Shown here piece by piece: positions 16,673 to 48,330 of a DNA stretch of 64,000 nt. The stretch comes from Pseudalkalibacillus sp. SCS-8 (GTDB taxonomy: Bacteria > Bacillota > Bacilli > Bacillales > Fictibacillaceae): the NCBI RefSeq assembly GCF_040126055.1, contig NZ_CP143541.1, positions 310,001-374,000 of the forward strand, read 5' to 3'. How positions within the stretch are numbered: position 1 is the stretch's first letter; each line of letters begins with the position of its first letter. The notes beneath the pieces are model-generated. The model did no database searches. It was not told where the DNA came from and was given only the letters and a program-made list of their open reading frames with translations. Both the position numbers and the translations under genes were made by a program.

Positions 16673-17057
16673 AAGTTGATTTTTGTAGAAATTCACGACA
16701 CTCCTGCGGGAAAAGCGAGCCAGGCGAGACCCCACAGCTACTTAAATTAAGGTTCTTCGACTAAAAGCCACCACGTCCTGTGGTGAACGTCGAAGTCACC
16801 ACATCCTGTGGAAGTGAGGCTCGCGGAGATGTCTAGCTCATCGCCTAGTTGCTCGAGGTCGCTTCAATTCCTTTTAAACACAAAGAACGTGTTTTTAAAG
16901 GAATCTCCAGCGCTTGCACTACAAGCATAAGGGCAACTAAGGCTCAGCCTTCGCTAAGGCTTGTCATCGCCAAGTTTTCTTTATCGCACCTGTTCAGGCG
17001 ATTCCGCTTTTCTTCAGCCCGCGGAAAGGGAGTGAATTTCGGAAGAAATCAACTTTT
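16673..17057. repeat. long interspersed imperfect palindrome, composite copy
   Basis: The ends are inverted: AAAGTTGATTT, GAAATTCAC, CACTCC and GCGGG on the left match CCCGC, GGGAGTG, GTGAATTTC and AAATCAACTTT on the right. The conserved left core is CTCCTGCGGGAAAAGCGAG. Inside lie the small hairpin cassette (16751-16811) and another nested structure starting GTCTAGCTCATCGCCTAG, with the stem AATTCCTTTTAAACAC/GTGTTTTTAAAGGAAT. No transposase is present. Related sequences are common intergenic repeats in Bacillaceae; this is a non-autonomous, MITE-like or RNA-structure element. Other copies are at 39243-39462 and 31961-32061. Confidence 0.8.
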
Positions 17058-17222
17058 ACTACCTAAAACAGAGCATTTACTATCCACAACAGAGCATTTA
17101 CTATCTAAATTTCCCCCATTACTATCCAAAACCTAGCATTTACTATCCAAAACTCCTCATTTACTATCCGAAACCCCTCATTTACTATCCAAAATGACGG
17201 TTTTACTATCCAAACCCCCAGA
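17055..17222. repeat. 21-bp array, core TTTACTATCC, eight units
   Basis: Unit starts fall at 17055, 17076, 17097, 17118, 17139, 17160, 17181 and 17202, exactly 21 bases apart. Each unit keeps TTTACTATCC with one or two changes (ATTACT at 17118), followed by a C/A-rich variable 11 bases. The first unit overlaps the right end of the palindromic element. The remaining stretch to 17407 shows no gene or clear promoter. The same family recurs at 48193-48330. Confidence 0.85.
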
Positions 17223-17407
17223 ACACTCCCACCAAACGAAGATTTTTGTCCCAAAAATCAACTCAATCACCATCCCGATCATCCTGCACAATCAATTTTT
17301 CCTCAAAATCCTAGCTTCTTAGGCTTTTCCTCTTTTTCTTTCACAATCATTCGTGCTATCCTAAGAGTTACAAAAAATGAAAACTCGATTTTTGGAGGTA
17401 TTACATC

Positions 17408-17935
17408 GTGCTTGAAAACAGCTATACATTAATTGCGATCATACTTGTCATCAACATCGTATATGTAACCTTCTTCACCTTACGTATGATCCTTACCTTG
17501 AAAAACCAGCGCTATCTCGCAGCTGCGACAAGTGTAATCGAAGTCCTGATTTACGTGATCGGGCTCGGAATCGTACTTGAAAATCTCAATGAAATCCAAA
17601 ACCTGATCGCCTATGCAGTCGGTTATGGAATTGGTGTCATTGTCGGAATGAAGATTGAGGAAAAGCTTGCGTTAGGCTACATTACCGTAAACGTGATTAC
17701 GAAAGAATTCGACTCGGACATTCCGTCAGCCCTTCGTAATAAAGGATACGGCGTTACGAACTGGCTTGCAGATGGACGAGATGGTCCACGTCTGATGATG
17801 CAGATTCTGACTTCTCGAAAATCGGAATTTGATCTCTATGAAACAGTAAAGAAGATGGACCAGAAAGCGTTTATTATTTCACATGAACCAAAAGCCTTTC
17901 ATGGAGGGTTCTGGGTCAAGGCTGTACGGAGGTAA
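17408..17935 (+). CDS. yebE: UPF0316 / DUF2179 membrane protein
   Basis: A 175-residue protein with GTG start at 17408, ten bases after GGAGG. Three hydrophobic segments occupy about residues 5-27, 40-60 and 67-85. A cytoplasmic DUF2179 domain follows (about 95-170), with the pattern NKGYGVT-WLADGRDG-R and a final KAFIISHEPKAFHGGFW. UPF0316 proteins have no proven function; DUF2179 is thought to be a small ligand-binding or regulatory domain. Both the family and the position before yebG and purE match B. subtilis yebE. It is separated from yebG by six bases. Confidence 0.9.
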   Translation: MLENSYTLIAIILVINIVYVTFFTLRMILTLKNQRYLAAATSVIEVLIYVIGLGIVLENLNEIQNLIAYAVGYGIGVIVGMKIEEKLALGYITVNVITKEFDSDIPSALRNKGYGVTNWLADGRDGPRLMMQILTSRKSEFDLYETVKKMDQKAFIISHEPKAFHGGFWVKAVRR

Positions 17936-17941
17936 CCGAAA

Positions 17942-18145
17942 ATGGATAAGAAGAAGCCGAAAAAGAAGAAATTCGAAGTTCAGGAAAATGAGAGTATCGC
18001 TGACTGCCTCGATCGTATGAAGGAAGAGGGGTACATGCCGGTGAGGCGGATGGAAGAGCCCGTTTTCCAAGAATCGAAACAAAAAGGTAAAAAAGACGTA
18101 GAATATTTGCGTCAAAAAGTCGTATTTGAAGGAAAATTACAGTAA
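17942..18145 (+). CDS. yebG: NETI motif-containing small protein
   Basis: A 67-residue, lysine-rich protein starting at ATG 17942 after GGAGGTAACCGAAA. It carries FEVQENESIADCLDRMKEEGYMP near residues 11-33, the NETI-motif family hallmark, here with NESI in place of NETI. The C-terminus VEYLRQKVVFEGKLQ is also typical. Function is unknown; it is probably cytoplasmic and co-transcribed with yebE. The first PurR box of the purine operon begins at its stop codon, so the region between this gene and purE is entirely regulatory. Confidence 0.88.
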   Translation: MDKKKPKKKKFEVQENESIADCLDRMKEEGYMPVRRMEEPVFQESKQKGKKDVEYLRQKVVFEGKLQ

Positions 18146-18189
18146 AATCCGAACGATTAAAACGTAAAATATTACAATGTTCGATTTTT
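18145..18189 (+). promoter_or_regulatory. pair of PurR boxes of the pur operon
   Basis: AAATCCGAACGATT (18145-18158) and the inverted AATGTTCGATTTTT (18176-18189) match AWWWCCGAACWWT with one or two changes each. The cores are 24 bases apart. PurR bound here should repress at low PRPP, as in B. subtilis. Confidence 0.85.
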
Positions 18190-18191
18190 CG

Positions 18192-46506: not shown

Positions 46507-46620
46507 GTGGAAGAATTCAGTCTATCAGCAGCAACATGGTTTTGGTTGCTTGTACCTATGCCATTAGTCGTCATACTATCAGTCATATCATTTTTCGTAG
46601 AATCGAAGGGAGAGAAATAA
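46507..46620 (+). CDS. putative small accessory protein of the symporter (37 aa)
   Basis: A 37-residue protein with GTG start at 46507, six bases after AGGAGGT; the longer open frame upstream has no such site. It starts VEEFSLSAATWFWLLVPMPL and has one membrane helix (about residues 10-31), ending in the charged VESKGEK. Tiny single-pass proteins of this type are often found directly before sodium/solute symporter genes and are annotated as symporter small accessory proteins. Here the symporter begins five bases after the stop, so the two are surely co-translated. The function is inferred from context. Confidence 0.75.
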   Translation: MEEFSLSAATWFWLLVPMPLVVILSVISFFVESKGEK

Positions 46621-46624
46621 TTCA

Positions 46625-48133
46625 ATGGATTTACCTACGTTAATAACGTTTATAATCTATCTAGTCGTTATGTTGACGATCGGGATCATCTCGTATCGTC
46701 TGACAAGTAATTTATCTGATTATGTTCTTGGTGGAAGAAGCCTAACTCCAGGAGTTGCAGCATTAAGTGCCGGAGCCTCTGATATGAGTGGTTGGCTCTT
46801 ACTCGGATTGCCGGGTGCTATGTATGCAAGTGGTATGAGTGCAGCATGGATCGGTATCGGTCTATCTGTCGGTGCATATCTGAACTGGCAATTTGTTGCG
46901 AAACGTCTTCGTACGTATACCGAAGTATCAAAGGATTCCATCACGATCCCGGATTACTTCGAAAACCGTTTCCGCGACAACTCAAAAGTTTTACGTGTCA
47001 TTTCAGCGATTGTTATCCTATTCTTCTTTACCGTTTATACGGCTTCAGGACTTGTAGGAGGAGCAAAACTATTCCAATCTTCATTTGATATGACGTACAC
47101 GTCCGCATTGTGGATTGGCGCAATTGTCATTATCTCTTACACGTTCCTAGGTGGTTTCCTAGCGGTAAGTTGGACAGACTTCATTCAAGGTATCTTGATG
47201 TTCTTAGCCTTAATCATCGTACCAATCGTTGCAATCAACGAGCTTGGTGGTTGGAATGAAACAATCAACCAAGTTGGTAACATGGACCCTGCATATGTTG
47301 ATATCATGGCAGGTATGGGTGGTGCTGCAGGATTCTTCGCAATCGTGTCATCACTCGCTTGGGGACTTGGTTACTTTGGACAACCACATATCCTTACTCG
47401 TTTTATGGCAGTAAAATCTCCACAAGACATTCCGAAAGCACGTGTGATCGGAATCGGTTGGATGGTTATTTCCCTATTCGGTGCGATTTTCACTGGTCTA
47501 GCAGGTATCGCATACTTTGCGGATAACCCACTTCAAGGTGCAGACACGGAAACAGTCTTCATCTTGTTCACTCAAGTATTGTTCAACCCTTGGGTATCAG
47601 GAATCTTACTTGCAGCAATCCTGGCAGCGATCATGAGTACTGTCGACTCTCAGCTACTTGTTTCATCAAGTGCTCTTGCAGAAGACTTTTACAAAGCGAT
47701 CCTACGTAAAGATGCAAGTGAAAAAGAACTTGTATGGATCGGTCGTTTCGCTGTACTTGGAATCGCATTGATTGCACTCTTCATCGCATCCGACCCAGAA
47801 AGCCAAGTACTGACACTTGTTAGTTATGCTTGGGCAGGATTCGGTGCCGCATTCGGACCTGTTGTCATCTTGTCACTATTCTGGAAGCGCATGACGCGTA
47901 ACGGTGCGCTTGCTGGAATCATCACAGGTGCTGTAACAGTTGTCGTTTGGAAGCTGCTATCTACTCCACCAGAAGGAGCAGAGCAATCTGCAGCAGTCAT
48001 TCCATTCAGCCTTTACGAAATCGTACCTGGATTCATCCTTGCTACGATTGCCATCTTGATCGTAAGTATGATGGGTAATGGACCGAAAGACGCTGTCGAA
48101 ACTGAATTCGACGAAGTTGCTGACGAAATTTAA
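46625..48133 (+). CDS. putP: sodium/proline symporter
   Basis: A 502-residue SSS-family transporter with about thirteen membrane helices. Diagnostic segments: YVLGGRSLTPGVAALSAGAS near residue 35, SDMSGWLLLGLPG near 54, GYFGQPHILTRFMA near 250 and the sodium-site helix STVDSQLLVSSSALAEDFY near 340. It imports proline with sodium, for nutrition or as an osmoprotectant. The position between yerH and gatC is that of opuE in B. subtilis, so an osmotic role is quite possible. Start ATG 46625 directly behind the small accessory gene. Confidence 0.93.
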   Translation: MDLPTLITFIIYLVVMLTIGIISYRLTSNLSDYVLGGRSLTPGVAALSAGASDMSGWLLLGLPGAMYASGMSAAWIGIGLSVGAYLNWQFVAKRLRTYTEVSKDSITIPDYFENRFRDNSKVLRVISAIVILFFFTVYTASGLVGGAKLFQSSFDMTYTSALWIGAIVIISYTFLGGFLAVSWTDFIQGILMFLALIIVPIVAINELGGWNETINQVGNMDPAYVDIMAGMGGAAGFFAIVSSLAWGLGYFGQPHILTRFMAVKSPQDIPKARVIGIGWMVISLFGAIFTGLAGIAYFADNPLQGADTETVFILFTQVLFNPWVSGILLAAILAAIMSTVDSQLLVSSSALAEDFYKAILRKDASEKELVWIGRFAVLGIALIALFIASDPESQVLTLVSYAWAGFGAAFGPVVILSLFWKRMTRNGALAGIITGAVTVVVWKLLSTPPEGAEQSAAVIPFSLYEIVPGFILATIAILIVSMMGNGPKDAVETEFDEVADEI

Positions 48134-48154
48134 ATAGCATTGATTAAGTGACTG

Positions 48155-48191
48155 AAGGACTGGCCTCATTGAGGGGCCGGTCCTTTTTTTG
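48155..48191 (+). terminator. terminator after putP
   Basis: AAGGACTGGCC pairs with GGCCGGTCCTTTTTTT around TCATTGAGG. Confidence 0.92.
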
Positions 48192-48192
48192 T

Positions 48193-48330
48193 TTTACTAT
48201 CCGATTTGTGCGATTTACTATCCGAGTTTCGTGATTTACTATCCGTTTTTTGCACAATACTATCCGGTTTTCCTGATTTACTATCCGAATTCAGCAAAAT
48301 ACTATCCGAATCGCCCGAAATACGATCCAA
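48193..48330. repeat. 21-bp array, core TTTACTATCC, seven units
   Basis: Unit starts are at 48193, 48214, 48235, 48256, 48277, 48298 and 48319, all 21 bases apart. The core TTTACTATCC varies to AATACTATCC and AATACGATCC in later units; the other 11 bases vary. The array begins two bases after the putP terminator and runs to within three bases of the stop codon of the opposing gene. Same family as at 17055. Confidence 0.88.

Follow-up and report, generated by a model that had tools for sequence, protein, structure and literature searches.

What are the short tandem arrays that lie between the genes of Pseudalkalibacillus sp. SCS-8? The question is raised by a 64,000-nucleotide stretch of its chromosome (bases 310001–374000 of genome G000, a single contig of 3.62 Mb; hereafter the window), in which arrays with periods of 20, 21, 48 and 52 bp are found. 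An initial annotation described the 20-, 21- and 52-bp arrays as three unrelated families tuned to whole helical turns. It proposed either docking sites for chromosome-organizing or DNA-bending proteins, or selfish sequence amplified by slipped replication with phase constraint. Our analysis leads to a tentative answer for the 20-bp family: its arrays may be DNA docking arrays for a putative Bacillales protein.

The 20-bp family forms mostly six-unit arrays with a conserved core

The core of the 20-bp family, TTTTYGTAGATAA, has 89 occurrences in the genome of 3.62 Mb, and the reversed pattern has one. At least three cores are present in 26 arrays, which are dispersed over the chromosome in gaps between genes; this set excludes the two-unit site 742602 and the lone core 3489505. 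According to our hand count, 20 of the 26 have exactly six units; one more has six slots, one of them degenerate, and the others have 3, 4, 5, 7 or 8 units. Four partial matches lying 42–72 bp beyond arrays are outside this tally and inside the set of 156 units used for the profile. Spacings of 20, 20, 20, 20 and 21 bp are found in 11 of the 26 arrays. The columns of the 13-bp core carry 1.48–1.94 bits, apart from one Y position (0.68), and those of the spacer 0.04–0.86, a contrast that is partly built in because the units were located by their core match. We also sampled 20 stretches of the genome on a grid of about 180 kb (400001, 500001 and 3420001 are off grid); the array density in this sample is biased upward, because the 500001 and 3420001 stretches hold previously known arrays.

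Overall, the number of sites per array peaks at five to seven. Among 40 refined arrays from named loci, 21 have five units and 8 have six, with a maximum of seven, and ten of 25 refined arrays from relatives have five. Some loci carry two ids, namely L063/L177 (named and relative sets) and L054/L156.

One diverged paralogue pair consists of array 698674 and the rRNA-linked array 15382. In a full-length alignment of this pair, 2 of 78 core positions are changed, compared with 9 of 35 in the spacer and 26 of 118 in the right flank (Fisher test, 0.0004 for core versus spacer and 5e-5 for core versus flank). Two younger array copies carry too few changes for such a contrast. Slipped replication with phase constraint leaves conserved cores beside drifting spacers unexplained.

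At E 1e-3, both flanks are shared by 4 of the 26 arrays, a short one-sided flank by 3 and none by 19, so that the blocks appear to have moved or formed without their surroundings. A shared right flank noticed by eye was not upheld at this threshold. Such copying or remaking of the block itself is what a selfish or near-neutral satellite would do: blocks would be copied and homogenized by conversion, and period and copy number would come from the copying machinery, with no host function. The block-internal variant TTTTTGTATGAAA, which is seen at unit 5 in several arrays and recurs across them, points the same way. We nevertheless consider a satellite unlikely, since in the paralogue pair the spacers drift and the cores do not, and since no mobile carrier was found: the 20-bp core pairs of G000 and its sister species have no match in viral contigs, the 20-bp array has none in plasmids or phages, and the 52-bp array none in plasmids.

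A mobile system was also weighed. The ends of elements of the Tn7, Tn552 and IS21 type carry iterated transposase-binding repeats of 19–22 bp, and the arrays, block-like and about 114 bp long, could be such ends left solo. A scan of both strands of the fetched stretches found no two of the 26 arrays less than 11 kb apart, and thus no inverted partner array nearby, which makes this origin highly improbable.

A sister species carries a different core

In a PurF comparison, the closest named relatives of SCS-8 are ‘Alkalihalobacillus’ sp. YIM B00296 and Pseudalkalibacillus decolorationis, and genome G007 represents a sister species (95% PurF identity). G007 has the same architecture with the core TTTTTCTAGATAA. 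Among the 100 matches listed out of 104, this core forms 23 clusters of at least two cores, with six lone cores. The 22 arrays examined contain 96 units, two to six each, and 71 of 74 spacings equal 20 bp. The G000 core pair, with 36 matches in its own genome, has none in G007. Such a species-wide core change could also be the replacement of one satellite by a new family.

The G007 gap orthologous to that of window array 45828 contains a TTTTTCTAGATAA array. Read by eye, the purC–purS gap holds six units in G000, two with its own core in G007, and about seven with TTTTTGTCGTTA in G005. G001 has two to three units there, G002 a single one and G003 no more than one, which is degenerate; in G004 the gap holds a 52-bp array. 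One G001 core, with 34 matches against 8 for the control, marks a weak family.

A related core recurs across the order

Part of the 20–21-bp arrays of the order share a core of the form TTCG-Y-N-GATAAA. This likeness was noticed before it was tested, and the columns that were not searched serve as a check. For a five-mer test we used 36 of the 40 named arrays, with at least four units and with loci of the same genus removed. CG is present in 30 of these arrays (15.1 expected), GCGAA in 8 (0.48) and GATAA in 10 (1.7). Out of 244 five-mers compared, GCGAA and GATAA survive correction, the species not being independent.

The pattern GATAA-N11/12-CGNNGATAA-N11/12-CGNNGATAA was found in 45 of the 397 genomes sampled from the order, with G000 counted in, and in 27 of their 135 genera. 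By our own tally it gives about 500 matches, compared with 7 single matches of the reversed pattern in 7 of the 397 genomes. Outside the order it occurs in 2 of 391 genomes (398 searched, minus G000 and six of the same order; Fisher 1e-11). At least one order-wide match, in G302, reads like a coding repeat. In the unsearched columns of the 25 loci that yielded chains, of 30 fetched, T precedes CG (position −1) in 19, a pyrimidine follows it (+2) in 22, and A follows GATAA (+9) in 23. A core common to genera across the order is a further point against a satellite. High loads of the three-core pattern were seen in three genomes of the order, G310 (126 matches), G117 (103) and G150 (73), which may be suitable organisms in which to look for the predicted binder.

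Three known elements were considered and rejected. CRISPR (clustered regularly interspaced short palindromic repeats) arrays have identical repeats and unique spacers of about 25 bp or longer, and here a 13-bp core is followed by a 7-bp spacer. The DnaA box reads TTATNCACA; the reverse complement of the core, TTATCTACRAAAA, carries T at the position after N at which the box requires C, and this T is constant in 155 of 156 units. A sigma-D/sigma-28 promoter consists of TAAA, about 15 bp and GCCGATAA. In some species the shared core has a −10-like part that fits the sigma-D pattern; at 20/21-bp spacing the TAAA of the preceding unit is 11–12 bp away.

Strand neutrality, RNA folding and curvature

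Gene gaps were defined with our own open reading frame (ORF) caller rather than by curated annotation. In gaps between co-directional genes, 27 arrays run with the genes and 20 against them (p 0.38; 11:6 in G000, 9:6 in G007 and 7:8 in other genera). G000 and G007 together have 15 arrays in convergent gaps and 1 in a divergent gap, against a background of 23:27 (p 0.0009), and the ratio is 7:1 in another set of 23 loci, drawn from 30 by leaving out 7 in which fewer than three exact cores lay close to the centre.

An RNA-level role is another reading: as parts of transcripts, the arrays could be small RNAs, protein sponges or structures of 3′ untranslated regions. Several lie close behind a stop codon. 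Both 52-bp arrays of the window fold better than shuffles, with z of −3.7 (first 144 nt of the 35747 array) and −1.7, and 52-nt repeats are reported to be transcribed in B. coagulans (PMC8625621). The 20/21-bp arrays tested show no RNA fold (z 0.28 to 1.32), and their strand ratio is the neutral one given above. We also collected 31 rows with periods of 48–53 bp (two of 48), with 2–10 units each and all spacings but one equal to the array period; inverted arms are significant in just 13 of them (12 of 29 loci, several of one family). An RNA-level element is therefore decidedly unlikely in our view.

Another explanation is intrinsic curvature, in which phased A/T tracts would bend the DNA and no specific protein would be needed. 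In a calculation with wedge parameters, predicted curvature exceeds that of dinucleotide shuffles in all 24 of the 20-bp arrays tested (of 26; mean z −3.0), and strongly so for three 21-bp arrays, an excess expected for any phased repeat. Compared with column-permuted arrays of the same period, 12 of 31 own arrays, 4 of 17 from relatives and 11 of 38 from named loci rank among the 5% with the greatest curvature. In a comparison with random intergenic units, curvature lies above the median for 28 of 38 named arrays (p 0.0025) and for 9 of 17 from relatives. The effect is thus modest outside G000, and curvature does not itself require a fixed TTCG-GATAAA core; we judge it very unlikely to be the explanation.

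A predicted docking protein

Docking sites, as proposed in the initial annotation, are the best reading of the core conserved against spacer and flank, the 20/21-bp register, the preferred number of sites and, for the 20/21-bp class, the lack of RNA fold and of strand preference; the protein that they call for is a prediction. For the 20-bp arrays we favour this reading, at slightly less than even odds. The predicted trans-acting protein would read the 13-bp core on double-stranded DNA and assemble head to tail. Because the cores are non-palindromic and two turns apart, we propose a directional oligomer of about six subunits. It could wrap or stiffen about 120 bp; in the two species counted, the gaps concerned seldom contain divergent promoters. 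Candidate roles of the complex are nucleoid anchoring and insulation at gene ends. Core and putative protein would co-evolve. The 52-bp arrays might be a second, separate docking class.

A wider version of this proposal is more doubtful. In it, a single order-wide putative protein would have co-evolved with its sites, each species rewriting the variable bases of TTCG-Y-N-GATAAA in concert at dozens of loci while keeping the two-turn spacing and about six sites, which would be the bacterial equivalent of a satellite DNA with its binding protein.

Several observations weigh against docking. First, when the 26 arrays of G000 are set against the 22 of G007, only 3 gaps are occupied in both genomes, each with its two arrays in the same orientation (a fourth, one-sided gap pair was left uncounted). 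Array positions thus turn over quickly, which suits selfish DNA, and we dropped the idea that orthologous sites are kept with a replaced core as a rule, as it concerned a few gaps only. Second, GATAA is missing from 26 of the 36 arrays found outside the genus, and many families therefore lack the shared core. Third, three loci of other genera hold more than 8 sites (11, 12 and 15). Fourth, other species do not show the avoidance of divergent gaps: of their 20-bp-class arrays, 46 could be scored, and 4 of these are divergent and 4 convergent, against a background of 86 and 58 of 533 (a further 17 of the 63 rows had no clear gene context). Fifth, the even chromosomal spacing of the arrays in G000 (coefficient of variation 0.56, P 0.0009, post hoc) did not recur on G007's main contig (1.13), and we dropped it as a sign of chromosome organization. 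In addition, core conservation could result from gene conversion between copies instead of selection, and the transcription seen in B. coagulans leaves room for an RNA role of the 52-bp class.

Two period classes rather than a general helical rule

Around purF, 80 named loci gave 46 intergenic arrays, with periods of 20 bp (7), 21 bp (23) and 52–53 bp (8) or scattered values (8). Periods of 10–11, 31 or 42 bp were absent from these 46 arrays. A further 23 rows were set aside as lying inside ORFs, many of them spurious; one of these has a 30-bp and one a 42-bp period. Tuning to whole turns thus holds in that two-turn (20–21 bp) and five-turn (52–53 bp) periods dominate; as a general rule it is too loose, other whole-turn periods being absent from the intergenic set, and what it describes is mainly two period classes. 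The dominance of two classes among unrelated sequences is also not what a satellite would lead one to expect. Over six units, the 20-bp register ends about half a turn out of the 21-bp register, so the two cannot both be in phase with relaxed DNA of 10.5 bp per turn; each register is probably set by whatever binds.

In seven loci of the subtilis and pumilus groups (150 kb), we found no 19–22-bp or 50–54-bp array. At another locus, L123 of Bacillus mediterraneensis, a 208-bp higher-order tandem repeat (625–2287) contains 21-bp units.

The arrays of the window

Tandem Repeats Finder (TRF) recovers seven arrays in the window, with periods of 20, 21, 52 and 48 bp (Table 1). Together with core counts above chance, this confirms that the three families exist where they had been placed, each of them twice within 31 kb (the 52-bp arrays at 26917 and 35747). 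The first position of the region singled out by the initial annotation, 16673, holds no array; it falls in the left arm of an inverted repeat described below.

Table 1. Tandem arrays of the window (positions in the 64,000-nucleotide stretch)
Array	Position	Strand	Units and sequence	Gene context	Detection
21 bp	17055–17218	+	eight units, seven 21-bp spacings; core TTTACTATCC(A/G)AAA, reverse complement TTTYGGATAGTAAA	downstream of rRNA operon	TRF, unit refinement
20 bp	22134–22247	+	six units, core TTTTYGTAGATAA; spacings 20, 20, 20, 20, 21	between purC and purS	TRF
52 bp, first subfamily	26917–27227	+	TATGAGTGC ... GAGCACCTCATA	between purF and purM	TRF
52 bp, second subfamily	27224–27324	+	about 2 units		TRF
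52 bp	35747–36079	+	about 6 units, inverted arms TGAGGTGCT / AGCACCTCA		TRF
48 bp, REP-like	45617–45819	+	repeat of GTGTCAGGCAC		TRF (45617–45799)
20 bp	45828–45941	+	six units, core TTTTYGTAGATAA		TRF (45848–45941), refined start 45828
21 bp	48193–48328	+	6–7 units, core TTTACTATCCGAW	between convergent genes	TRF

All arrays of the window are intergenic, in agreement with the initial annotation, and several start soon after a stop codon. The sole overlapping ORF (45359–45928, minus strand) looks spurious: across the stretches fetched from 6 genomes of the same genus, its sole match is a 46-aa piece in G007. The spaced 21-bp core pair has 13 matches in the genome and the reversed control none. 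On opposite strands, the 20- and 21-bp cores both read TTCG...GATA, a likeness seen by reading, and calling these two families unrelated may be too strong.

The 21-bp TACTATCC family comprises nine arrays, near genome positions 15977, 45292, 112931, 327055, 358193, 666112, 794591, 3265677 and 3432815; lone matches at 640049, 1390582, 1669128 and 1887469 were excluded. All nine lie less than 0.8 Mb from dnaA (Kolmogorov–Smirnov p 0.002 in a post hoc test, with duplication of rRNA-linked segments accounting for part of the effect), coordinate 1 being the start of a dnaA-like gene as read by eye. Seven of the nine have a 20-bp array no more than 12 kb away.

The 52-bp array at 35747, which is immediately preceded by a terminator-like hairpin, matches 11 places in the genome, itself included. 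The 52-bp class, whose behaviour differs from that of the 20-bp class, is likely a separate system.

The 48-bp repeat does not follow the helical rule, as had been recognized, and belongs to a separate family resembling repetitive extragenic palindromes (REP). Its sequence GTGTCAGGCAC is found at 45618–45819, 50847–51049, 57270–57328 and 58503–58609, in 48-bp steps (one of 47) and in both orientations, with 15 window matches at up to one mismatch where 0.65 are expected. Three more copies in 48-bp steps stand at the 5′ end of a Y1 transposase gene in L270, the only such gene found in the genome. Its product matches PF01797 over the cut-off and scores 76.3 bits, just under the cut-off of 80, with NF047646 (REP-associated tyrosine transposase, RAYT). 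The repeat is probably an element of the REP/RAYT type that keeps a fixed spacing of its own, and it has no bearing on the helical rule. This label fits the mixed orientation and the copies at a transposase gene; unlike this repeat, the 20/21-bp arrays consist of direct, non-palindromic units.

Two further features were seen in this region. At 16669–17059, 42-nt inverted arms, 307 nt apart, flank the Rfam Bacillaceae-1 RNA (16745–16812). An insert resembling this element (by eye) is present in the purC–purS gap of G003, and the Bacillaceae-1 ‘RNA’ may ride on an element like a miniature inverted-repeat transposable element. Three purine riboswitch aptamers lie within 11 kb, at 7341, 9162 and 18222.

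Comparison with known repeat systems

The initial annotation knew of no described system of this kind; the 20–21- and 52-nt classes of noncoding repeats have in fact been published (Subirana & Messeguer, 2021; PMC8161180). In 176 Bacillus genomes, these authors found 4029 tandem repeats, 781 with units of 20–21 nt and 1886 with units of 51–53 nt, which are noncoding, constant in size and species-specific in sequence. The units contain conserved short signals, and 52-nt units often a signal and its reverse. The subtilis group has few such repeats, and the authors state that sequence is not conserved across species. Polymerization of a protein on the DNA, or small RNAs, were the authors' suggestions.

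The arrays of SCS-8 belong to this class: unit sizes of 20–21 or 51–53 nt, location between genes, several families per genome and species-specific full consensus sequences are all found here. At least four repeats, as in that class, are present in the six main 20-, 21- and 52-bp arrays, and about two in the second 52-bp subfamily (27224). In contrast to the lack of conservation reported, the TTCG-Y-N-GATAAA core is common to 27 of 135 genera, in part of the 20–21 class only. The preference for six units, the constraint on core versus spacer, the indifference to strand and the change of core from one sister species to the other go beyond the main text of PMC8161180. A literature search, covering titles and the starts of abstracts, found no later publication naming a binding protein or a shared core, and searches with the letters of the core or of the REP returned only unrelated titles among the matches listed.

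The repeat class itself is therefore known, and what is new for its 20–21-bp branch is the shared core, the preferred size, the strand-neutral setting and the core constraint. These four features fit protein docking on DNA better than slippage or RNA. The repeats of constant size and variable sequence in Bacillus-like bacteria have been a puzzle since 2020–2021, and the conserved core, its constraint relative to the spacer and the size of about six sites make it testable at the bench. If the docking proposal is true, it implies a fast-evolving chromosome-binding factor, which may be missing from the usual model, B. subtilis.

Two other systems invite comparison. The arrays of bacterial interspersed mosaic elements (BIME/REP) of enterobacteria are alike in having several intergenic families per genome, many of them near gene ends. 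Iterons of plasmid and secondary-chromosome origins consist of five to seven direct, non-palindromic sites, 19–22 bp apart, with a 12–13-bp core. The 20-bp family is like them in site number, spacing and core, and unlike them in being present as 26 copies on one chromosome.

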